From assembly GCA_003597935.1 (NCBI GenBank), contig QZJT01000120.1, positions 1-64,000 of the forward strand: 64,000 bases of DNA. The letters run 5' to 3'. Origin of the DNA: Phycisphaerales bacterium. Its GTDB lineage: Bacteria > Planctomycetota > Phycisphaerae > UBA1845. The notes beneath the pieces were generated by a model. The model saw nothing but the letters and a program-made list of their open reading frames with translations, was not told the origin of the DNA and made no database searches. Below are positions 402 through 35,157 of this stretch, in pieces. Every line of letters starts with the position of its first letter. Position 1 is the first letter of the stretch. Made by a program: the position numbers and the translations under genes.

Positions 402-2467
402 ACCCCCGAATCAGCTCCATCGAGAACCTCATCGCCCGCGACCCGGCCGGGCGCAACGTGTTCGGGCTGCTCATTCCCGATCAGTTGCGGCTGGCGGCCC
501 AGTCGCTGCGGCTGGCCCGGCGGGTGGGCATCGTCACCGGGTTCTACGTCCCCGCGGCCGAAGCCCCCGAAACCGACGGCCCGCACGGGGCGCACGTTGT
601 CGGCGCGGCGCTGACCCGGCTGGGGCTGCACGTCGACTACGTCACCGACGAGCGCAACGCCGGCGTTTTGCGGGCGCTGGGCATCGAGCCGATCCTCGAC
701 GCCGATTCGTATCTGGCCGGCGCCCGTCCGTCGCACCTGGTTTCCATCGAGCGCGTCGGCCGCGCCCGCGACGGGCGCTACCGAGACATGCGCGGGCGGG
801 ACATCACCGCCGCCGCCGCGCCGCTGGATTCGCTGTTCCTGGCGGCGTCGGACGAGGGTCTGACCACCATCGGCATCGGCGACGGCGGCAACGAGATCGG
901 CATGGGCCGCGTGTTCGCCGCCACGCTGTCGCAGATCGCCCACGGCCCCGAGATCGCCTGCGTCGTGTCCACCGACTACTGCATCGCCGCGGGCGTCTCG
1001 AACTGGGGGGCGTACGGCCTGGCCGGGGCGCTGTCGGTGCTGGTGGGCAGAGATCTTCTGCCGGACGCCGCGGCCGTGCTGGAAGACCTGCGGGCGATGG
1101 TGGACCGGGGGGGGGCCGTGGACGGCGTGACGCTGCGGCGCGAGCCCACCGTCGACAGCGTCAGCGCCGACGAGAGCGTACGGATGCTGGAGGAGATCCG
1201 CCGCCAGATCATCCCGCTGCCGGACTTCCGCGGCGGCCGGACGCTCACCGTGGGGATTCTCGGTTACGGCGAAACGGGCCGGGCCGCAGCCCGGCTCCTG
1301 GTGTACCACGGCCACAAGGTGCGCATCTCCGATGAGGGCCCGGTCACGCTCGATCCACCGCTGGTCGCCGACGGCGTCGAAAGCGGCGGGCACAGCATCG
1401 AGTTTCTGCACGGTTGCGACGCCGTGGTCGCCAGCCCGGGCGTCCCGGCCGACGCACCCATCCGCGCCGCCCTGCACGCCTGCGGCACGCCGGTCATCAG
1501 CGAGCTGGAGATGGGCTCGCAGTTGTGCCCCTTTCCGCTGGTGGCGGTGACGGGAACGATCGGCAAGCGAACCACGCTGGAGATGCTGCAACGCATCGTC
1601 GAAAACCACGACAACCGACCGTCGGAAGCTGCGCACCCGATCCGCGACGCACGTGCCGGCTCAGAATCCGACAGCGAGCCGCGCGCTTCAGCCCGCGCGG
1701 ACTTGCCGTCGGAGAAGCGCACTGAGGCCGAGCACGCTCATCCCCGCCTGAAAACGCCCGTCCGAATCGCCATCGGCGGCAACCGCGGCCTGCCGCTGTC
1801 GGAACTGCTGATGCGGTCGTATCAAGAAGCGTCGCGCTGCGGTGCGGATGGCGAGCGACGACAGAAGTGGCCCTCTGCCGGGGCAGGTGCCGAGGCTTCC
1901 ACCCGTCTCTCCGACGGCGGCTCCGCGCGGGCTGAAGCCCGCGGCTCGCTGCACGACGCTCCCGGCTCGCTGGCCGAAGCCCGCGGCTCGCTGGCGGAAA
2001 CGCGCGGCCCGCTGGCGCTCGACGACCGACGTCCGTCCGGCTCCGCGACCATCCTGGCCCTGGCCGTCTCCAGCTTCCAGCTTGAATCGATCGTCCGTTT
2101 CCGCCCACAGATCGCCGTCATCCTCAACGTCGGCGAGGCCCACCTCGACCGCCACGGTTCGGTCGCCGAATACGTCCGCATCAAGAGCCGCATCTTCATG
2201 AACCAACAGGCCGACCAGTGCCTGATCCTCAACTACGACGACCCGCGCGTGCGGCCGCTGTCGCGCAAGCACCGCGGCCAGACGATGTTCATCTCGGCGA
2301 AACAGCCGGTGGACCGCGGCGCCTGGCTGGAGGGGGGCCGTCTGCACATGAACGTCGCCGGCCGCGACGAGTCCTTCGATGCCGCCCGCTTCGGCGACGC
2401 CACTTTTCCCGAGGACCTGCTGGCCGCGGCCCTGGTGGCGCGGCTGTGCGGCGTGACGCCCGGGTGA
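398..2467 (+). CDS. Fusion protein: D-glutamate cyclase (DUF4392) N-terminal domain plus truncated MurD-like ligase
   Basis: N-half has DUF4392 hallmark [15 protein letters not shown]-half has [37 protein letters not shown] and [26 protein letters not shown], typical of MurD. Ends before the MurD C-terminal domain. Two repeat-rich in-frame insertions. Confidence 0.8.
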
Positions 2468-2569
2468 CGGCTGGTGCTGAATGTCGAACGGGGAGTGTCC
2501 AATGCTGAATTGCGTATCGCGCGTGAACCGCGGAGGGCGAGCGATCGTAGCCACGGACCTCAGTCATTG

Positions 2570-2759: not shown

Positions 2760-3578
2760 ATGGTTTCGCTGCCGCCCGACAAATCGCCGGCCGATCTGAC
2801 GCCCGTGCAACTCCGCATCCTGTGCCGCGCCGGCTCATTGTCCTCCCCCACGGCCGGTTATGCCCGCGGCTTCGCCCAGGCGAACCTGGTCGTACTGCCC
2901 GTCGAGCACGCCGACGCCTTTGCGCGGTTCTGCAAGGCCAACCCGAAGCCCTGTCCGCTGCTGGAGGTTCTGCCGCCCGGCGCATTCGAACCGGTGCGAT
3001 GCGCCCCTGGCGCCGACCTTCGCACCGACCTGCCCCGATATCGCGTGCTGGAGCACGGCCGGTGTGTCCAGTGGCCGACCGACGTGACACCGTTGTGGCG
3101 ACCCGACTTCGTTGCGTTCCTTATCGGTTGTTCGTTCACCTTCGAGTGGGCATTGTCAGCACTGGGAGTGCCGGTCCGGCACGTGGAAGAGGGCCGCAAC
3201 GTGCCCATGTTCCGCACCGACAGGCCATGTGTATCGGTCCCGCCGTTCGCCGGTCCGCTAGTGGTGTCGATGCGTCCATTAACGCCCGCCGACGCGAAGC
3301 GGGCCGCCCACATCACCGCCGCCTTCCCGGACGTCCACGGCGGACCCGTCCACGCCGGCGACCCGGCCGCGCTCGGCATCGGCGACCTTTCGCACCCGCA
3401 CTACGGTGACGCCGTCACCATCAAGCCCGGCGAGATCCCCGTCTTCTGGGCCTGCGGCGTCACGCCTATGGAAGCCATCCTCGCCGCCCGCCTGCCGCTG
3501 GCCATCACGCACGAGCCGGGGCACATGTTCGTCACCGATATCCCGAATGAAGCGTTGCGGAGAGAATCGCCGGAGTGA
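2760..3578 (+). CDS. DUF1445 (YcsI/UPF0317) putative hydro-lyase / D-glutamate cyclase-associated protein
   Basis: Translation with SPTAGYARGFAQANLVVLP, VAFLIGCSFTFEWAL, RNVPMFRTDRPC, HYGDAVTIKPGEIPVFWACGVTPMEAI, ITHEPGHMFVTDI typical of DUF1445. Confidence 0.88.
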   Translation: MVSLPPDKSPADLTPVQLRILCRAGSLSSPTAGYARGFAQANLVVLPVEHADAFARFCKANPKPCPLLEVLPPGAFEPVRCAPGADLRTDLPRYRVLEHGRCVQWPTDVTPLWRPDFVAFLIGCSFTFEWALSALGVPVRHVEEGRNVPMFRTDRPCVSVPPFAGPLVVSMRPLTPADAKRAAHITAAFPDVHGGPVHAGDPAALGIGDLSHPHYGDAVTIKPGEIPVFWACGVTPMEAILAARLPLAITHEPGHMFVTDIPNEALRRESPE

Positions 3579-3667
3579 AGGTCGAAGGTCGAAAGTCGAA
3601 AGTCGAAGGTCGAAAGTCGAAGGTCGTAGGTCGAAGGTCGAAGGTCGAAAGTCGAAGGTCGAATGAC
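3577..3667. repeat. Degenerate 7-bp tandem repeat (GTCGAAR-type: GGTCGAA/AGTCGAA)
   Basis: Consecutive aaggtcgaaggtcgaaagtcgaaagtcgaaggtcgaaagtcgaaggtcg... directly after the stop of the DUF1445 gene; further copies at about 3747-3800, with related traces at about 2475-2520 and 5125-5165. Confidence 0.9.
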
Positions 3668-3708
3668 GAACGTCGAGTATCGAAAGCACGGCGTGCGGAG
3701 GGCGCACA

Positions 3709-3868
3709 ACAATCCGGACCGCGACCGTGAGGGAGCGGCTTCCTGGGGAATGTCGAATGTTGAAGGTCGAACGTCGAAGGTCGAAGGTCGAATGTCGAAA
3801 GGAGGAACGGCGCGCGGAGAGAGCACGACAATCCGAACCGCGACCGTGAGGGAGCGGCTTCCTGGAAG
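3709..3868 (+). repeat. Two copies of an approx. 35-bp unit (AATCCGRACCGCGACCGTGAGGGAGCGGCTTCCTGG) flanking a GTCGAA block
   Basis: Near-identical text at about 3712-3747 and 3827-3866; diverged copies at about 4295-4335 (reverse orientation) and 45495-45595. Confidence 0.88.
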
Positions 3869-9387: not shown

Positions 9388-10482
9388 GTGTTTTTTCCGT
9401 GCAGGACGATGGACATGCATTATCGCAGATTACTCGGACTCTTGACGTTCGCCCTTCTGTCGCCGATCGCCCACGGGCAGTTCGGCGCCGCCCCCCGCCT
9501 GAAGGTCGGCGATATGGCCCCGCCGCTGGCGATCGCCGAATGGGTCAAGGGCGAGCCGGTGGACCTGGCCGCAGGGAAGGGCAAGCACGTCTTCGTGGTG
9601 GAGTTCTGGGCGACCTGGTGCGGCCCCTGCCAGTACAGCATCCCGGAACTCACCGAGCTGCAAAAGGTGTACGGCGACAAGGGGCTGAAGGTGATCGGCG
9701 TGACCTCGCCCGATCTGCGCGGCAACACCCTGAAAGCGGTCAAGCGATACGTCGAGGAGCGCAACGACACCATGGCTTACACCGTCGCCTTCGACGACCA
9801 GACGAAGACGAACGACGCCTGGATGATGGCGGCGAACCAGTACGGCATCCCGACGGCCTTTATCGTGGACCGCTCCGGCAAGATCGCCTGGATCGGCCCG
9901 CCGCTGGTGCCGGAGTTCACCGAGATCGTCGGCCAGGTGGTGGACAACGTCTTCGACCCGCAGCGGCAGGAGCGGATTCGGAACCTGTCCGACGCCCTGG
10001 TGGAAAAGGCCCAGGGCGGCGACCTGCGGGCCTCCATCGAAATCGCCACCCAGATTCTCGAACTGGATCCCGGATACCAGTGGGCCATCCAGGCGGTTTA
10101 CACGATCTACGTCGAGCAGTTGGAGGACGTGGCCGGCCTGCGGGAATGGGCGGGCAAGTTCATCGCCAAGAACCGCGGCCACAGCCGGGCGATGACGCGC
10201 CTGTCCACGCAGTTGATGGGCACCGGGATGCTGCCCAATCGCCTGCCGGACCTGGCCCTGGACGCGGCCCGGGCGGCATACGAGGGAACGCAGCGGAAGG
10301 ACGCCGAGGCGGCCGCCGTGTATGCCCGGGCGCTCTACCAGATCGGCGCGATCGACGAGGCGATCAAGACGCAGGAACTGGCCGTGAGCCTGACCAGCGC
10401 CTCGATGGCCGACGACCACCGGGCCCTGCTGGCGTTTTACCAGGACTGTAAAAAGGCCAGGAACACGCTTGCGTCGCCGTGA
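9388..10482 (+). CDS. TlpA-like thioredoxin-domain protein with C-terminal helical repeat region
   Basis: VVEFWATWCGPCQYSIPELTELQKVYGDKGLKVIGVTS active site; C-terminal TPR-like helices. Confidence 0.85.
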   Translation: MFFPCRTMDMHYRRLLGLLTFALLSPIAHGQFGAAPRLKVGDMAPPLAIAEWVKGEPVDLAAGKGKHVFVVEFWATWCGPCQYSIPELTELQKVYGDKGLKVIGVTSPDLRGNTLKAVKRYVEERNDTMAYTVAFDDQTKTNDAWMMAANQYGIPTAFIVDRSGKIAWIGPPLVPEFTEIVGQVVDNVFDPQRQERIRNLSDALVEKAQGGDLRASIEIATQILELDPGYQWAIQAVYTIYVEQLEDVAGLREWAGKFIAKNRGHSRAMTRLSTQLMGTGMLPNRLPDLALDAARAAYEGTQRKDAEAAAVYARALYQIGAIDEAIKTQELAVSLTSASMADDHRALLAFYQDCKKARNTLASP

Positions 10483-10525
10483 ACGCGGCTCAAGACCTCC
10501 ATCAGCGGTCGGGAGGACCAGTGAA

Positions 10526-13500
10526 GTGGCGAGAAGGACCGGATCGCGGCCGGACGACCTTCTGACGGCACTGGCGTTTGACGAGGCGCCGACGTTTCTT
10601 CGAGCCGGGGACCGTCGCTTTTCGACTGCGCCGGCGTTCGGACACGTCTTTCGCCGCGCCGCGAAACCGGCCGAGGGCGACCGGCCGGGGCCCGGGCTGG
10701 TCGGCGTCTACACGCTCCGCTCCGCAACTGCCACCGCAAGCACTCCGCCGATCCCAGTCCTGTACGTGTGCAAATGCGATTCCGTCGAGACAGCCGACAA
10801 GGTTCATCGCCTCGTCTGGAATCAGGACGTCGTACCGTTCGTGCTGGTGGCGACTCCGGAAGACTACCGCCTCTATTCCGGGTTTGATTACAACGTGCGG
10901 TCGGCAAAGCGGTCCGCGAACCTGCTACGCGCGTTCAACAGCGCCGCCGAGGTTGCGGAAGCCGGCTTTCATGCCGACGCCATCGACGACGGACGGGTCT
11001 GGCGCGAGTGGGGCGCCCGCGTGCGCCCCGAGGGACGCGTCGATTGGACGCTGCTGGACAACCTGAAGACGCTGGCCGCCCGGTTGCAGGATAACGGGCT
11101 GCCGATCGAGCTTGCCCACGCCCTGATTGGGAAGTACGTCTTCCTCCACTATCTGCGCGACCGGGACATACTGTCGCAGCGCAAGCTGGACGCCTGGACC
11201 ATCAAGCGGGAGTCCGTCTTCGGCCGCGATGCCTCGCTCTCCGGCTTGAGGGCCGTCGTCAAGCGGCTGGACGACTGGCTGAACGGCAGCGTATTCCCGC
11301 TCCGGCTGAGCGGGAAGGGCGCGCCGGACACCGAGCATGTCCGCATGGTGGCCTTGACTTTCGCTGGCGATGAGCCGAAATCGGGCGGCAGTTGGCAACT
11401 CCACCTGGACTTCCAGGCGTACGACTTCTCCTACATCCCCATTGAGACACTCTCGGTAGTCTACGAGCAGTTCCTGCACGCACCGTCAAGCGACAAACGC
11501 TCGCGCGGCCGGGAGGCTGGCGCTTACTACACGCCCATCCCGGTCGTCAACTTCATGCTCGCGGAGCTGGAGGATCGGCATCCGCTGACGGACAAGACGA
11601 GGATTCTCGACCCGGCCTGCGGCTCCGGTGCTTTTCTCGTTCAGTGCTATCGCCGGCTGATCGAGAAGGCGCTGACTATGCGAAAGGGCGAACTCCGTCC
11701 CATTGAATTGCGATCCCTGCTCACGCGGAGCATCTTCGGCATCGACCGCGACCCGGAAGCGTGCAGCGTCACGGAGTTGTCGCTGATCCTGACGCTTCTG
11801 GACTATTGCGACCCGCCGGATCTTGAAAATGGCAGCCGTTTCAAGCTCCCCACGCTGCGCAGCTCAAACGTGCTGGCCGAGAACTTCTTCTCCACCGATC
11901 CGGATCCATTTGCCAATCTGGGCGGCCGCGGCTTCGATTGGGTTGTGGGCAACCCGCCTTGGAAGAGGCTCAAGTCCGACAGGCTCAGCGATGACGACAG
12001 GCCCGCCTGGGACTGGATGCAGCGGTCGAAGAAACAGGACATGCCCGTCGGCGGCCACCAGGTGGCTCAGGCCTTTGCATGGGAAGTATCGCGGTATCTG
12101 GCGGAGGGCGGACACGTCGCGCTGCTCATGCCTGCCATGATGTTGTTTGAGGATCCGTCGCAGGACTTCCGTTCGTCGTTCTTTCGTCGCAACCAGGTCC
12201 AATCGGTCGCGAACTTCGCCAACCTGGCGGAAGTGCTATTCGCCGGGCGATCGCGCGTTCCCGCGGCAGCCATTTTCTACACACCACGTGCCGAGGAGGC
12301 CGGCGAACCATCCTTCGACGAGTACATTGCGGTCTGTTCGCCGCTCGTCGCCAACCAGGAACCCACGCGGCCGGTGCAGGCGGGCACACGCACCGAGAGC
12401 TGGAGCCTCGTGGTTAACGGTGCGGAGGTGCGCGGGATCCCGGCACGGTCTGTCTTGAAGGGGAACGGTCTGCCCTGGAAGCTCGCTACGTGGGGCAGCC
12501 ATCTCGACGCTCGCCTGCTGGAGCGAGTCAGCCAGCGCTTTTTGACATTGCGAGATGCGATGCGGTTGGACCTGCTTGTCTATGCAGAGGGTTCTCAGCT
12601 TCGTGCGGCTGCCGGTGGTGAAGTCGAACGGTGCGAGGAGGTCGCAGGCAAGCAGACCATCAATGTGAAAGCACTAGAAGGCCTTCGCCACCTCTTCGCA
12701 TTTCCCATTCAGGCTTTGCTTTCAAACAAGAAGAACTACCTCAGACTCCGCGGCGGAAAGCTAGGGCTCGACGTCTGCCGTCCACCGCACGTCATCGTCA
12801 GTGCGGCCCGCAATTTCGCCATTTACTCCGAAGAGTATCTGATTGTGCCGCCACGTCAGATCGGGGTGATCAGTCCGTCGGGCGACAAGCGATTGCTCAA
12901 GGCCTTTGCTGTCTACATGAACTCAGATTTCGCCTACTATCATCAATTCCTCCGCTCCACAGAGTTGGGAGTGAAACGGGATAGGGCAACACTGTCGGCG
13001 TTCAAGACGATCCCCCTCCCTATGATCTCGTTCGATGCGCAGTCCCTGGACCGGTGGGCCGGGTTGCATGACAGGTTGGTGGCCGCGTCGAAGGCAGCGC
13101 TCGCGATGCCGAATCGGCGCGGGCCCGATTTGTTTACGCAACAATCGGACGACACCGGAAGTGAGTCGATTGCCGCACTGCTCGTTCAAGCAAACGAGGC
13201 CGTCAGCGACGCGCTCGGACTGAAACCCCGGGAGCGGGCGATCGTCAACGACCTGGTCAATGTGCGATTGGAACTCAATGATGGGAAACTGGGCGCAAAC
13301 GCCGTCGGGCCACCCACGGCGGATCACCTGCGGGCGTACGCCGATCGCCTCCAAACCGAACTCGATACGTTTGTCGGCGACGCACTGCCGAAGCGGCACA
13401 ACGTCGAAGTCTTGAATGACCGGAATACCGGCATGATTCATGTCGAACTTGTTCCGGCAGGCAAGGCGCGCCCGGTCGCCGTGCTCGCCGCGGACTCCAA

Positions 13501-13714
13501 GACCGCCGTACAACTGGAGCGAACACGGGCACGCCTGCGCCAACAGCGCGCCCAGTGGGTCTATTTCGACCGCAACCTGCAGATCTTCGAGGGAACCAGT
13601 ACGTACACCTTCAAGCCCATGCAGCGATTCCACTGGACCGAGAGCCAGGCCATGTGCGATGCGGCCGAGATTATCGCCAAGACGCTGAGCAGTTCCGGAG
13701 GTCGTTCGCGTTGA
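10526..13714 (+). CDS. Large N-6 adenine DNA methylase (Eco57I/type IIG or PglX-like)
   Basis: TRILDPACGSGAFLVQCYRRLIEKAL (SAM motif), FDWVVGNPPWKRLK (NPPW). GGGAGGA Shine-Dalgarno-like sequence at about 10511 before GTG 10526. Confidence 0.82.
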   Translation: MARRTGSRPDDLLTALAFDEAPTFLRAGDRRFSTAPAFGHVFRRAAKPAEGDRPGPGLVGVYTLRSATATASTPPIPVLYVCKCDSVETADKVHRLVWNQDVVPFVLVATPEDYRLYSGFDYNVRSAKRSANLLRAFNSAAEVAEAGFHADAIDDGRVWREWGARVRPEGRVDWTLLDNLKTLAARLQDNGLPIELAHALIGKYVFLHYLRDRDILSQRKLDAWTIKRESVFGRDASLSGLRAVVKRLDDWLNGSVFPLRLSGKGAPDTEHVRMVALTFAGDEPKSGGSWQLHLDFQAYDFSYIPIETLSVVYEQFLHAPSSDKRSRGREAGAYYTPIPVVNFMLAELEDRHPLTDKTRILDPACGSGAFLVQCYRRLIEKALTMRKGELRPIELRSLLTRSIFGIDRDPEACSVTELSLILTLLDYCDPPDLENGSRFKLPTLRSSNVLAENFFSTDPDPFANLGGRGFDWVVGNPPWKRLKSDRLSDDDRPAWDWMQRSKKQDMPVGGHQVAQAFAWEVSRYLAEGGHVALLMPAMMLFEDPSQDFRSSFFRRNQVQSVANFANLAEVLFAGRSRVPAAAIFYTPRAEEAGEPSFDEYIAVCSPLVANQEPTRPVQAGTRTESWSLVVNGAEVRGIPARSVLKGNGLPWKLATWGSHLDARLLERVSQRFLTLRDAMRLDLLVYAEGSQLRAAAGGEVERCEEVAGKQTINVKALEGLRHLFAFPIQALLSNKKNYLRLRGGKLGLDVCRPPHVIVSAARNFAIYSEEYLIVPPRQIGVISPSGDKRLLKAFAVYMNSDFAYYHQFLRSTELGVKRDRATLSAFKTIPLPMISFDAQSLDRWAGLHDRLVAASKAALAMPNRRGPDLFTQQSDDTGSESIAALLVQANEAVSDALGLKPRERAIVNDLVNVRLELNDGKLGANAVGPPTADHLRAYADRLQTELDTFVGDALPKRHNVEVLNDRNTGMIHVELVPAGKARPVAVLAADSKTAVQLERTRARLRQQRAQWVYFDRNLQIFEGTSTYTFKPMQRFHWTESQAMCDAAEIIAKTLSSSGGRSR

Positions 13715-14379
13715 TCGAGGACGCACAGGCTGGAGACGGGGGCGCCTCCGCGAACCTCGCTGATTACCGGTGGGTGTTCCTCCAGCGCGTCCACGGCGTC
13801 CTTCAGGCCGGCTACCTGCGGCTCAACGCCTCCGACTATGCCGCCGCCGATGAACCCACGATCAGCGGAGTTCTCGCAGGGTGCATGCGTGCGTTCCTCC
13901 GCGAGGACGTGCCCGACTGGGCCGACCACTTCAGCATCCACGATGATCCGCCGGTGAGCGACGGCGTTCGCACCGGCAAGCGTCGAAAACGCATCGACAT
14001 TGGTGTCGAGTCAGCGGTTCCGCGACCGGGACAGCGGTTCTCATTTGAGGCGAAGCGCCTCGGTGCGGAACATCCCATCGGCATCTACCTCGGCCCGGAG
14101 GGTCTCGGTTGCTTTCTTGCGGGCGACTACGCCCGCAACGACGACTCGGCCGGCATGATCGGCTACGTCCAGTCACACACGCCGTTTCACTGGGCGTCGC
14201 AACTGGAGCATCGGCTCCGTCTTGGCCCTGCCGCGTATCACACGTCCACCGAGCGGTGCTGGAAGAAGCACCTCTTCGTGGATGGCCCGCAGCACTGTTT
14301 CGTGTCCCACCATGAACGGGCCATCCTCGCGCGACCCATCACGATCTATCACAGCCTGCTGTCGTTCGTCGCCTCGTAG
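13711..14379 (+). CDS. Small PD-(D/E)XK-like nuclease candidate coupled to the methylase
   Basis: TTGA start/stop overlap with the methylase; RIDIGVES...RFSFEAKRL resembles D-x(n)-ExK nuclease core. Confidence 0.5.
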   Translation: MIEDAQAGDGGASANLADYRWVFLQRVHGVLQAGYLRLNASDYAAADEPTISGVLAGCMRAFLREDVPDWADHFSIHDDPPVSDGVRTGKRRKRIDIGVESAVPRPGQRFSFEAKRLGAEHPIGIYLGPEGLGCFLAGDYARNDDSAGMIGYVQSHTPFHWASQLEHRLRLGPAAYHTSTERCWKKHLFVDGPQHCFVSHHERAILARPITIYHSLLSFVAS

Positions 14380-16193: not shown

Positions 16194-16594
16194 GCCGAGG
16201 GGATCGTCCGGGGTGGAGCGCTATCGATCTGGAACCTCCGCGCGGACAGAAGCCACGCCTCCCGAGCGGCCGCCGGATAGTTCGGCCGACTGGAACCTCC
16301 GCGCGGGCTGAGGCCACGCAACTCGCCCAGAAGGGCCGCTCATGCCGTCACCGGCTCCGGCTTCGAATCGTGGTCGGTGGACGGAGTTGCTCCGGGCCGG
16401 ACCGGCACTAAGATGACAATGACGGCCCTCGATGACGGCCAGGTCCCATGCAGTGGGTCTCGGCGGCAACGGGTCAGGCTGGAGACAGAGCAGCCCACCG
16501 GCGCGATTCAGGTGCCGTGGATCGCCTGGTCGTCATCCAGGGCCGTCAGCACAGCCCCTCCTTTGACCGGGGCTGAGCGTCTACTTCCCTACGA

Positions 16595-17463
16595 TCAATC
16601 CGGGCCTGATTGCGTCTCGATCATGTGTTGCAAGGCTCGCCAGCCGGCCATCTGGTGCTCGGTCAACGTGGCATCGCGGCCGGTGGCCAGGCGATGCTCG
16701 ATGGCGCGAAGCCGCCGCCGCGTTTCGCGCGGCAGGTTCGGCCGTCGGTTGACCACCAGCCCGGTCACGTACTGTCGCTGATGCGCGCGGCGGACGTGCA
16801 GCTTCTTCCGCCGGTGCAGCCGATAGCCGTAATCTTCCGCGATCAGGCCGGCCAGCCGCATCAGTTCGCGGCAGCGCGGCGCGTCATCCTCGGCGAACGA
16901 AAACGTCAGGTCGTCGGCGTAGCGCGTGTAAACCGCGCCGGCGCGAGCGGCCGCGCCAGCCAGGCGGGCGTCGAGCCGGAAGTTGACCAGGTTGCTCAGT
17001 CGCGGGCTGGTGGGCGCGCCGGCGGGTAATGCGTCCTCGAACGTACACACCTTCGTCAACAGGCGGGCGGCCGGGCGGTTCCAGCCGATCCGGCGGAAGT
17101 AGCGGCGAACGCGCTCAGCCGTGGTGGATGCAAAGAACTCCTCCACGTCCATCCGTACGACTATCCGCCGCCCAGCGTGTACACGCGCGTTGGTGACGAT
17201 GGAGCGGCCGCGCTCGAACCCGATGGCCGCCGGGTGGACCGTCAGGCCGGACAGCACGCGGCGCAGGATGCGCTTCTGCATGATTTTCAGCGCCCGGTCC
17301 GGCGACTGAATGCGCCGCTGACCGCCGCCGCGCTTCGGGATCGTGAAGGTGGTGTAGCTCTGCTCGAAGGCAAGCAGTTCATGAACGTCCGTGCCCAGCC
17401 AGGCGGCCAGTTCCTCAGCACTTCGTCCCTTGCCGTGAATCAGCCTGGTCCACAGTCCCATGC
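16595..17463 (-). CDS. Retron-type reverse transcriptase
   Basis: FTIPKRGGGQRRI, VVRMDVEEFFASTT, LPAGAPTSPRLSNLVNFRLDARL, YTRYADDLTFSF (YADD), VTGLVVN: RT domain with retron-typical signatures. ORF can extend to 17545 with an alternative start. Confidence 0.88.
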
Positions 17464-17564
17464 TCGTGCCTCGATTCCGCGACTGTGCGCTGCGCCGATG
17501 CCACAATGCGGCGATGCGGCGACGCAGCCTCGAAGGACGGTTCACGAGGTTATTGGGCCAGCGC

Positions 17565-17720
17565 TACGGACCCGGAAAAAAGACCGGGCGCGGCCGCCCG
17601 CGCCCGGCCCGTCCTGCATCGGTTGCGAACCGATAGCCGAATTCCAAGGCCACGTCGCGTGACCCGGCCGACGAAACATCGGCCTTGCACTTTGCGTTCA
17701 AGTGCCGCCAGGACGGTGTC
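17565..17720 (-). ncRNA. Candidate retron msr-msd noncoding RNA (hairpin-rich region just upstream of the RT)
   Basis: On the minus strand: GGCCGATGTTTCGTCGGCC, ATCGGTTCGCAACCGAT, then CCGGGCGCGGGCGGCCGCGCCCGGTCTTTTTT. Three consecutive hairpins upstream of and co-directional with the RT. a1/a2 ends not resolved. Confidence 0.38.
17574..17611 (-). terminator. Rho-independent terminator-like hairpin plus T-tract (minus strand)
   Basis: CCGGGCGCGG/CCGCGCCCGG stem followed by TCTTTTTT on the minus strand. Confidence 0.65.
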
Positions 17721-17780
17721 GGCATGGTGCAGTCGTCGCCGCGCCGAGTCAACCCGCTCCGCCGGACGATGCGCGCGTCA

Positions 17781-18648: not shown

Positions 18649-18849
18649 AGCACCGCAACACGCGAACCGCCGGCTCCCGCGAGATCCCGTTCAGCGGACT
18701 CTTGATCGCGTTATTGGGAGTTCACCCCGCCCATTCCCCCTCCATGCCGTCCATCCCGCGTTCATCCCGTCCATTCCGCGTCCATACGGTCCATCCCATC
18801 CAAGCGGCATCGCCGCCAGCCCGCAACGGCCCCTCCGCCGCCCGCCCGC

Positions 18850-20430
18850 CTACTTCCGCGCCGCTGCTTCCGCGATCCGCCGCGCCAGCGCCTCGACGTC
18901 GTCGGCCTGGTTCATCGCCACCACCACCGCCTCGTCGCCTTCCGGAAACACGCTGACTAGGGCGTAAAACGTGCCCGCCGAGCCGTTGTGCCAGTGCATC
19001 AGCTTGCCCTCGAACTCGGCGATCACCCACCCGCCGGCGTAGTCGTCACCCGGAGCGGGAGTGTGCAGACGCTGGATGGTGGCCGCCTTCAGCGGCCCAT
19101 CCTTGCCGCGCAGGCCGGCGAGGTGAAACGCGGCGAAGCGGGCCAGGTCGTCGATCGACATGTGTACGTCCCCGGCCGGGGCGAGAAACTCGCCCAACTC
19201 ATACTCGCCGATCGGCTGGACCTGGATGGCGTCGCCGCTGCCGGCGTGGCCGTGCGGCTGATACGGGCGCGCGTGCGTGGCAGGCCAGCCGAAACCGGCC
19301 GACTTCAACCCGAACGGTTTGAACACGTATTCGCTCACCAGTTCCGCCCAGGGCTTGCCCGTCGCCCGCTCGGCGAGATACCCGACCAGGGCGTAGCCGG
19401 CGTTGGAATACTCGCTTTTCGTCCCGGGCGTGTTGGCCGGCGACATCATCAGGATTTCGGACAGGAACGCCTTGCGCTGCTCCGTCGGTTCGCCGCCCAG
19501 CGCGGTCAGCCGGTCCAGTTCCTCCTGGTCGAAGGTCAGCGCCGGCGTGATGCCGCCGCGGTGCTGCAAGAGCTGCGTCAGCGTCACGTCGCGGTAGGCC
19601 TCGTGCATCTTCATGTCTGGAAGTGCCCTGGCCAGCGTGGTGTCCCAGTCGAGCTTCCCCTCTTCGATGAGCCGCCCGATCAGCGTGGCGGTGATCGACT
19701 TGGTGAGCGATCCGACGTGGAACAGATCGCCCGGCTGGACCGCCTCCTGCGACCCGTGGCGGCGAACGCCGACCACGGCGTGATCGACGACCTTGTCGCC
19801 CTTGACGTGCGCGGCCGCGATGGCAGGGATGCCGTGAAGCTCGCGCAGTCGGGTCAGCAGGTCCTTGATGTCCTTGAAGGACTTGAAGACGGCCTCGTCA
19901 TCGACCGGCGGCGTGCCCGGCTGCAGGAGCAGACCGTTGATCAGGTGGGGCTTTTCGCTCTCCACCGAAATCGACATCTTCAGCCATTCGCCCTTGGTGG
20001 TCAGCGCGTGGACGACCATGCCGAAGTCCTGCCCGCCGTCGTAGCGCTTGATCTCGGCGATGCGCAGCGGCCCGGTGGCCGTCTGCATGAGCACTTCGTA
20101 GGTGCCGAAGCGGATTTCCTTCTGAAACGCCTCGGTGAAGGCCGTCTCGAAGTGCTGCTTGATCTCGACCGCGTCGCCCTTGCGGATGACCTTCAGCCAG
20201 GCGTCGAAGGCTTTGCCCACGGGGCTGTCCGGCAGCGGGATGTCACCGGCGCGGACCGGCGGCGCGGCGGCGAGCAGCACCACGGCCAGGCTGGCGGCCG
20301 TGCAGCGATGGAGAGTGAGGCGCTGGCGGCCGCGGAACTGCCGCCCGCGGGGCGGGCAGCGACGGACGGCATGGGCGGCGGATGGACTCGATGGACCGGA
20401 TGGACTGGATGGACGCAATGGAGTTGGCAT
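18850..20430 (-). CDS. Serine hydrolase, beta-lactamase family (class C-like)
   Basis: FHVGSLTKSITATLIGRLIEEGKLDWDTTL (SxxK), YSNAGYALVGYLAERATGKPW (YxN). The true start is probably inside the ORF, because the extreme N-terminus reads through a GTCCAT repeat. Confidence 0.87.
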   Translation of the reverse strand: MPTPLRPSSPSGPSSPSAAHAVRRCPPRGRQFRGRQRLTLHRCTAASLAVVLLAAAPPVRAGDIPLPDSPVGKAFDAWLKVIRKGDAVEIKQHFETAFTEAFQKEIRFGTYEVLMQTATGPLRIAEIKRYDGGQDFGMVVHALTTKGEWLKMSISVESEKPHLINGLLLQPGTPPVDDEAVFKSFKDIKDLLTRLRELHGIPAIAAAHVKGDKVVDHAVVGVRRHGSQEAVQPGDLFHVGSLTKSITATLIGRLIEEGKLDWDTTLARALPDMKMHEAYRDVTLTQLLQHRGGITPALTFDQEELDRLTALGGEPTEQRKAFLSEILMMSPANTPGTKSEYSNAGYALVGYLAERATGKPWAELVSEYVFKPFGLKSAGFGWPATHARPYQPHGHAGSGDAIQVQPIGEYELGEFLAPAGDVHMSIDDLARFAAFHLAGLRGKDGPLKAATIQRLHTPAPGDDYAGGWVIAEFEGKLMHWHNGSAGTFYALVSVFPEGDEAVVVAMNQADDVEALARRIAEAAARK

Positions 20431-22063: not shown

Positions 22064-22523
22064 CGCTTCCGGGTCTACCTCCTCCCGAAGCCCCCGGAAT
22101 CGCCGCTCGTTTCGACCTCGGGCCTGTCCGACTGGCGCACCGATTCAGCGCGGGCCGGAATCGCTTCCTGACCACCGGCGCCTGCTCGGTACGCTGACGG
22201 ACCCCACCGAAAGAACGGCAGACTCCATTGTGCCAAATGGTGCCGCCCGGATCAACTGCCGCCTCGGGATTCGGCAGCGCTGGACGGCATCCGACATCGG
22301 CCGGTCGCCCTGCGACAGCACTCCGGACCCTGGCGCTCCGCGCCCGTCGGACCATGAGGAAACGCGATCATTCGTTCGTCCGCGGGGCGCACGGTGCTCC
22401 GCGCTCGTCGGGCGATGTGACCGAGTCGGCCTGCCCGCGCACTGACCGTCGGAAAGACGCCGATCGCACGAGCCCCAAGCCGCTTCGTGGGTACCGAAGG
22501 TGTGGCGCCACGTCCGTGCGTCC

Positions 22524-22640
22524 GTCCAGTCCATGTCGTCCATCCAGTCCATGTCGTCCATCCAGTCCATGTCGTCCATCCAGTCCATGTCGTCCATCCA
22601 GTCCATGTCGTCCATCCAGTCCATGTCGTCCATACGGTCC
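22524..22640. repeat. Tandem 18-bp repeat (CCAGTCCATGTCGTCCAT), six contiguous units
   Basis: Exact repeats; isolated GTCCAT/TGGACTGGA-type copies at about 18725-18810, 20375-20430 and 35010-35060. Confidence 0.95.
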
Positions 22641-22663
22641 ATCAAGTCCATCTCCGCGCAGCC

Positions 22664-34988: not shown

Positions 34989-35157
34989 GTCGGATCGCCT
35001 TGGGTGCGCATCATGGACTTGATGGACAGTATGGACCGGATGGACTGGATGGACAAGCGGGCGCGGATGGCTCGCCGCCCGCTTCCGGTGGCACGCTCAT
35101 TGCTTCGGGAATACCTTTGGCGCACCGCGGCCGTGCGGCGATCCGGGAGTGTACGCC

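Follow-up and report, generated by a model that had tools for sequence, protein, structure and literature searches.

Introduction

Retrons are currently explained as anti-phage systems that guard a toxin. They are built around a template RNA that lies between two inverted repeats, a1 and a2, and is primed from an adjoining conserved guanosine (PMC8989520). Known retrons also typically possess an effector (PMC12548924). Two described groups come closest to the locus considered here. Ec86 (Eco1), a type II-A retron, carries its effector gene before the non-coding RNA (ncRNA) and has a long msd. Type XIII retrons, which are also common in planctomycetes, have HEAT-ARM and SWIM partners adjoining the reverse transcriptase (RT).

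The window analysed here is a stretch of 64,000 nucleotides from a Phycisphaerales bacterium (contig QZJT01000120.1, assembly GCA_003597935.1). On its minus strand lies an element that, by every feature testable in sequence, is a retron consisting of an RT and an msr-msd RNA. A preliminary description of this DNA had proposed either an effector-less retron or a new type, and this is supported: the RT belongs to a clade of its own, and no effector is seen family-wide. The family is probably an effector-less, membrane-attached retron variant, apparently undescribed, that is widespread in planctomycetes.

The reverse transcriptase and its relatives

The RT gene occupies positions 16595–17461 of the minus strand and encodes 288 amino acids from an ATG codon. 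The strand is open over 16595–17545, the frame extending upstream to a GTG at 17545. Of these two codons, the ATG (17461, MGLW...) is the probable start, because orthologues begin with a conserved ATGGGACTG-like start. The preliminary description had called the enzyme a retron-type RT on the basis of three signatures. All three (YTRYADD, NARVH and VTGLVVN) are present in the translation, representing the YADD, NAxxH and VTG motifs of the retron lineage, and profiles, solved-structure relatives, clade and fold bear the assignment out. The window RT scores 60 bits with RVT_1 (cut-off 29.6). Among PADLOC profiles, RT_XIII matches it best (275 bits, E 3e-82), followed by many other retron profiles, with group II intron and Drt2 models scoring far below them. 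The top relatives of solved structure are retron RTs, including Ec67 and, as the best match, Ec86 (154 bits), whose identity to the window RT is just ~30%. An AlphaFold model computed from 41 aligned family members has a mean pLDDT of 94.9. When this model is compared with the PDB, the first 18 matches are without exception retron RTs, headed by Ec86; group II intron and DRT structures rank after them. No folded extra domain was found on the RT besides its compact core.

About 840 genome searches across the phylum, some covering the same genome more than once, gathered a family of ~50 members with roughly 42–60% identity; one more came from GTDB contigs. The source genome, an assembly of 155 contigs that is 76.96% complete, contains just one RT gene. 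In a tree of 89 RTs, 49 form a single clade (support 99/90) that contains none of the other sequences, and the type XIII, Ec67-like, Ec86/Ec78-like and group II RTs all fall outside it. The sole low-scoring ‘member’ outside the clade, L113, is also devoid of the RNA described below. Searches of plasmids, phages and viral contigs returned merely distant retron RTs, with at most 46% identity. In related pairs, dN/dS lies between 0.06 and 0.45, which indicates that the RT is under purifying selection; dS approaches saturation in some of these pairs.

Group II intron RTs and DRT systems share the RT core with this enzyme. Intron RTs are nevertheless split off by a branch with 100/100 support and the window has no intron RNA match in Rfam, so a group II intron identity is rejected. 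The preliminary description had named placement with group II introns or DRTs as the outcome that would count against it; the RT instead falls in its own retron clade. Filing the family under type XIII on its best profile is likewise rejected by the tree (99/90), by missing partners and by a score gap: RT_XIII-type RTs, which form another clade, reach 346–569 bits on the profile that gives the window RT 275.

A conserved msr-msd RNA upstream of the reverse transcriptase

Upstream of the RT, on the same strand, the window encodes a retron ncRNA of 108 nt (17609–17716). From 5′ to 3′ it consists of a1, a guanosine, stem-loop 1, stem-loop 2, a weaker hairpin, a linker, the msd hairpin and a2. The a1 repeat CCGTCCTG (17709–17716) pairs perfectly with its partner a2, CAGGACGG (17609–17616); across the family this helix 1 is 97% paired, and seven of its nine pairs have changed on both sides. 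The candidate priming (branch) guanosine, G17708, directly follows a1, and a guanosine is present in this place in the family. Msr stem-loop 1 (GCACTT GAACGCA AAGTGC, 17687–17705; helix 2) is 94% paired, with all six pairs covarying. Msr stem-loop 2, GGCCGATGTTTCGTCGGCC (17666–17684; helix 3), is 98% paired and displays a conserved UGUUUCG loop. The third hairpin (GGUCAC GCGAC GUGGCC, 17648–17664; helix 4) is weaker, just 56–61% paired, and shifts its register between species. Ahead of a2 lies the msd template hairpin ATCGGTTCGCAACCGAT (17618–17634; helix 5), with a CGC loop closed by a U-A pair and a variable stem whose length differs among species; it is 87% paired in an unfitted MAFFT alignment and 98.6% in the model-fitted one. 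The whole RNA folds at -84.4 kcal/mol (z -5.5), a value matched by none of 200 shuffled sequences. A structured ncRNA enclosed by a1 and a2 thus adjoins the RT at this locus, as in the retron plan.

The preliminary description had proposed a structured RNA between about 17565 and 17720, upstream of the RT. The msr-msd-like RNA is real and the hairpins are where they had been seen, namely msr stem-loop 2, the msd hairpin and a terminator-like GC hairpin. The extent needs correction, as the retron RNA proper ends at 17609 and the GC hairpin is a separate element outside a2. The description had also missed the a1/a2 ends and the homology to Ec86 RNA.

The structure is conserved well beyond the window, which answers the earlier question of whether the hairpins persist in orthologues. 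A covariance model, R1, was built from planctomycete RNAs alone. It gives the window RNA 87.2 bits and finds the RNA ahead of the RT at 49 other planctomycete family loci, a count that leaves out one match with E 0.54 (L003). On 22 aligned RNAs, the 30-pair structure is 89% paired, and 24 pairs have changed on both sides. Two-sided changes fill 113 cells of this alignment, against 12–23 when pairing partners are slid and 33 when they are shuffled. All 53 RNA matches together are 90% paired with 282 such cells, in an alignment that is fitted to the covariance model. The RNA has no match in Rfam.

The RNA is linked exclusively to the RT. It is confined to the RT locus in all 25 RT-bearing whole genomes, which rejects dispersed copies elsewhere in these genomes, and it is absent from all five relatives searched that have no RT. 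The source genome itself has one clear copy (87 bits), the next match having an E value of 0.036. At two loci, a pair of msr-msd RNAs that have diverged from each other stands in tandem before a single RT (L076, 5637–5748 and 5803–5911; L099, 7087–7232 and 7331–7450). Each RNA is bounded by its own a1 and a2, and together they would provide one enzyme with two templates. On a 3.3-kb contig (L021), the RNA (2442–2550, plus strand, 87 bits) lies upstream of a family RT on the opposite strand, a reversal that may be an inversion or an assembly artefact.

Kinship to the RNA of Ec86

An unplanned result connects this RNA to the best-studied retron. Just upstream of the RT on a viral contig (L178), R1 recognises an RNA with 24.9 bits (E 0.009), a modest score that is the best across families. 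The RT of this contig is Ec86 (E 3.5e-184). The preliminary description had suggested a search with retron ncRNA models; Rfam offered nothing, as noted above, and the model built from the family itself matches a genuine retron RNA. In 790 kb of sequence from 90 other retron loci, R1 gives 13 matches up to E 1, and 12 of these lie directly upstream of the retron RT on the same strand. Because several of the contigs are near-identical, these 12 count as about four distinct sequences, of which that on L178 alone was checked by name. In the R1 alignment, G17708 stands opposite the G of UUAGC in the Ec86 RNA, and the UGUUUCG loop is identical in both. The G of UUAGC is the branch point of Ec86.

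Like Ec86, the planctomycete ncRNA runs through a1, G, stem-loop 1, a UGUUUCG stem-loop 2, msd and a2, which is the msr layout and loop of type II-A, and by sequence and fold the Ec86 RT is the closest one solved. In contrast to Ec86, the family has no effector, its msd is usually shorter, its N-terminus is of a membrane type and a terminator-like hairpin of its own precedes the RT. A nucleoside deoxyribosyltransferase-like effector before the ncRNA, which is characteristic of type II-A, was not found among the family's neighbours.

R1 found no RNA of the planctomycete-family kind at type XIII loci. Planctomycetes also harbour solitary retron-like RTs (L162–L169 and L171–L174), which resemble the family in having no widely conserved neighbours, the same type of N-terminus (amphipathic or transmembrane) and, by eye, structured sequence upstream. 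Unlike the family, they sit on other RT branches and have no significant R1 match, and their upstream structure does not resemble R1.

Transcription signals

The RNA is flanked by signals of its own. A -35-like TTGACT (17747–17752) and a -10-like CACCAT (17724–17729), the latter a weak match to TATAAT in the window copy, are separated by a 17-nt spacer on the minus strand and form a probable ncRNA promoter that ends 7 nt before a1 and scores 8/12 overall. Across the family, a TTGACR-17-TANNNT-like promoter ending 4–8 nt before a1 scores at least 9/12 at 20 of 49 loci, compared with 1.2% of shuffles. On the other side, outside a2, the hairpin GCCGGGCGCGG/CCGCGCCCGGT followed by CTTTTTT (17576–17608, minus strand) resembles a terminator and is the strongest of four such elements found, against 0.7 expected. 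At 47 of the 49 loci, a stem of at least six pairs begins within 22 nt after a2, and a T run often accompanies it. These promoter-like and terminator-like signals suggest that the RNA is probably transcribed as a separate unit and that read-through supplies the RT.

The same order of promoter, structured RNA, terminator-like hairpin and gene would also fit a cis-regulatory leader, an attenuator of the RT gene that never serves as a template for reverse transcription. This interpretation is very improbable. R1 recognises the established template RNA of Ec86 at the right place, a guanosine follows a1, and the msd varies in length while the msr is conserved, as in retrons. Moreover, tandem RNAs before one RT (L076, L099) and an RNA on the opposite strand (L021) would be odd for a leader.

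Gene neighbourhood and the search for an effector

The preliminary description had seen no recognisable effector beside the RT, an observation that extends to the whole family of ~50 loci. Across 42 oriented loci, the proteins encoded up to 6 kb to each side include no family that is common to many loci. Neighbour clusters overlapping the RT were discarded, since their ORFs are antisense or shadow frames of that gene and not conserved genes. The largest other cluster (six loci, varied positions) is sulfatase-like by eye, and a prfB neighbour is common to three close relatives. Of 93 flanking ORFs, at most five match any defence model, none of these models recurs in more than two, and Pfam assigns mostly housekeeping functions (e.g. 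release factor, GidA, 6PGD, purH). The sole defence-like neighbour in the window is a type IIG restriction-methylation gene (10469–13714, plus strand; PADLOC E 1.5e-46), which lies 2.9 kb away and is not shared with other loci. A 274-aa ORF after this gene (13555–14379) gives no Pfam match.

Type XIII partners were sought both in cis and in trans. HEAT-ARM and SWIM proteins are absent from 14 family genomes, whereas two of two control genomes were positive, the queries having been verified beside a real type XIII RT. With neither an effector gene nor a fused effector domain found for the family, it is not classed as a tripartite retron defence system. A complete tripartite retron is nonetheless conceivable if the gene for the toxin lies elsewhere in the genome or has diverged so far from locus to locus that no common family is recognisable. 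Effectors are typical of known retrons (PMC12548924), and the partners of the type XIII relatives adjoin the RT. Given that no neighbour is conserved over the 42 loci, that the flanking ORFs are mostly housekeeping with five scattered defence-model matches and that the type XIII partners are missing in cis and in trans, we regard such a hidden partner as doubtful.

Inheritance also bears on the nature of the family. Defence islands usually turn over fast. Labels for 20 host families change 24 times on the RT tree, compared with a mean of 37.7 (minimum 32) when shuffled, and in one host family 8 of 12 genomes have the retron. The pattern of labels resembles slow and mostly vertical descent more than fast turnover.

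Immediately downstream of the RT, and convergent with it, lies a bacterial small SRP RNA (16437–16534, plus strand; Rfam RF00169, 48.9 bits). It was considered as an insertion site and rejected; the arrangement is not seen at 11 other, orthologous loci and is therefore probably coincidental.

The N-terminus and probable membrane attachment

The preliminary description had missed that RTs of this family begin with a membrane-type segment. In 16 of 48 members, a hydrophobic stretch of transmembrane strength precedes the RT core, and most others start with a short segment such as MGLFDWLRGLFD (MG[LF]-type). The type of N-terminus has switched only about three times on the RT tree. In the AlphaFold model of one transmembrane-type member, residues 3–61 form a helical hairpin (pLDDT 43–89) before the RT. 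The same hydropathy cut is passed by two of 77 distinct retron RTs encoded on plasmids and viral contigs, and the motif test by none of them; the motif test is a strict one that overlooks about one in three members of the family as well. The window counterpart, MGLWTRLIHGKG (17426–17461, minus strand), is weak and among the least convincing of the set, with a pLDDT of ~50 compared with >90 for the RT core. The N-terminus, which consists either of helices predicted to span the membrane or of a short amphipathic stretch, suggests that the RT is membrane-attached.

N-termini of these kinds are also found in type XIII relatives, whether or not partner genes are present. For instance, a transmembrane or MGLFDFVKKLFGG-type segment opens the RTs L160, L161 and L170, which are true type XIII enzymes accompanied by HEAT-ARM and SWIM-like proteins. 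On this ground, the membrane segment was rejected as a substitute for the missing partners. We read it as a probable membrane tether of the broader group rather than a replacement effector, because type XIII relatives share the N-terminus types irrespective of partner genes.

A more specific version holds that the segment itself is the effector, held harmless by the RT-DNA complex and damaging the membrane once a phage disturbs that complex. It is kept in nearly all members despite changes in sequence and type, and nothing other than a compact RT follows it. However, the same segments on type XIII RTs with separate partners suit a tether better than a toxin, and in many members, the window included, the segment is very short. 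This mechanism appears distinctly improbable.

A possible mechanism and its meaning

Taken together, the features of the locus outline a toxin-less retron whose RT would prime at G17708, copy the msd and reside at the membrane through its N-terminus, a proposal that rests on sequence and that we consider highly probable as a whole. A short RNA (17609–17716, minus strand) would be made from its own promoter and would mostly end at the GC hairpin, read-through past which would yield the RT. Pairing of a1 with a2 would close the RNA; the RT would then bind the two msr hairpins, prime on the 2′-OH of G17708 and copy the msd in front of a2, producing a small hairpin DNA joined to RNA. The N-terminal segment may keep the complex at the membrane. 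As no effector is encoded with it, the RT-DNA complex might either act together with the product of a distant gene or need no toxin at all.

A further, tentative possibility, to which we give somewhat less than even weight, is that this widespread and largely vertically inherited family operates with no toxin whatever. Its membrane-tethered RT would then make a small RNA-DNA hybrid that serves, at the membrane, in housekeeping, in sensing or in a form of defence that is not suicidal. The family combines a conserved RNA, a constrained RT, housekeeping surroundings, clustering by host family, an apparent membrane anchor and no toxin seen, and it offers a clean test of retron roles beyond toxin-mediated abortive infection. 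Its RNA family is absent from Rfam, and the kinship to the Ec86 msr links a distant phylum to the best-studied retron.

The window copy

The window RT has an unusual residue that the preliminary description had also missed. Alone among 41 family RTs, it reads LPAGAP in place of LPQGAP (near 17017–17035). The replaced Q corresponds to a dNTP-contacting residue of RTs, and with A in its place the window enzyme may have little or no activity. The copy could thus be a relic in decay, belonging to a family that functions in other genomes, which would also account for the long distance from a2 to the start codon (147 nt, compared with mostly 40–90 in the family) and for the weak N-terminal helix. 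Nevertheless, the reading frame is intact, the YADD, NAxxH and VTG motifs are retained, a1 and a2 pair perfectly and the RNA scores 87 bits. Decay of the window copy is accordingly judged unlikely.

Repeats and other RNAs

Several repeats occur elsewhere in the window. Related GTCCAT/ATGGAC units make up separate tandem arrays at 18720–18802, 20379–20422, 22519–22652 and 35013–35054, of which the third contains 18-base units that are 97% alike (22519–22642). Arrays of 7-base GAAGGTC units lie within a 119-base repeat at 3577–3865. At two orthologous loci, runs of matches to Acido-Lenti-1 RNA (six in 600 bases) are found a few kb from the retron (L082, 10519–11098; L075, 3570–3615).
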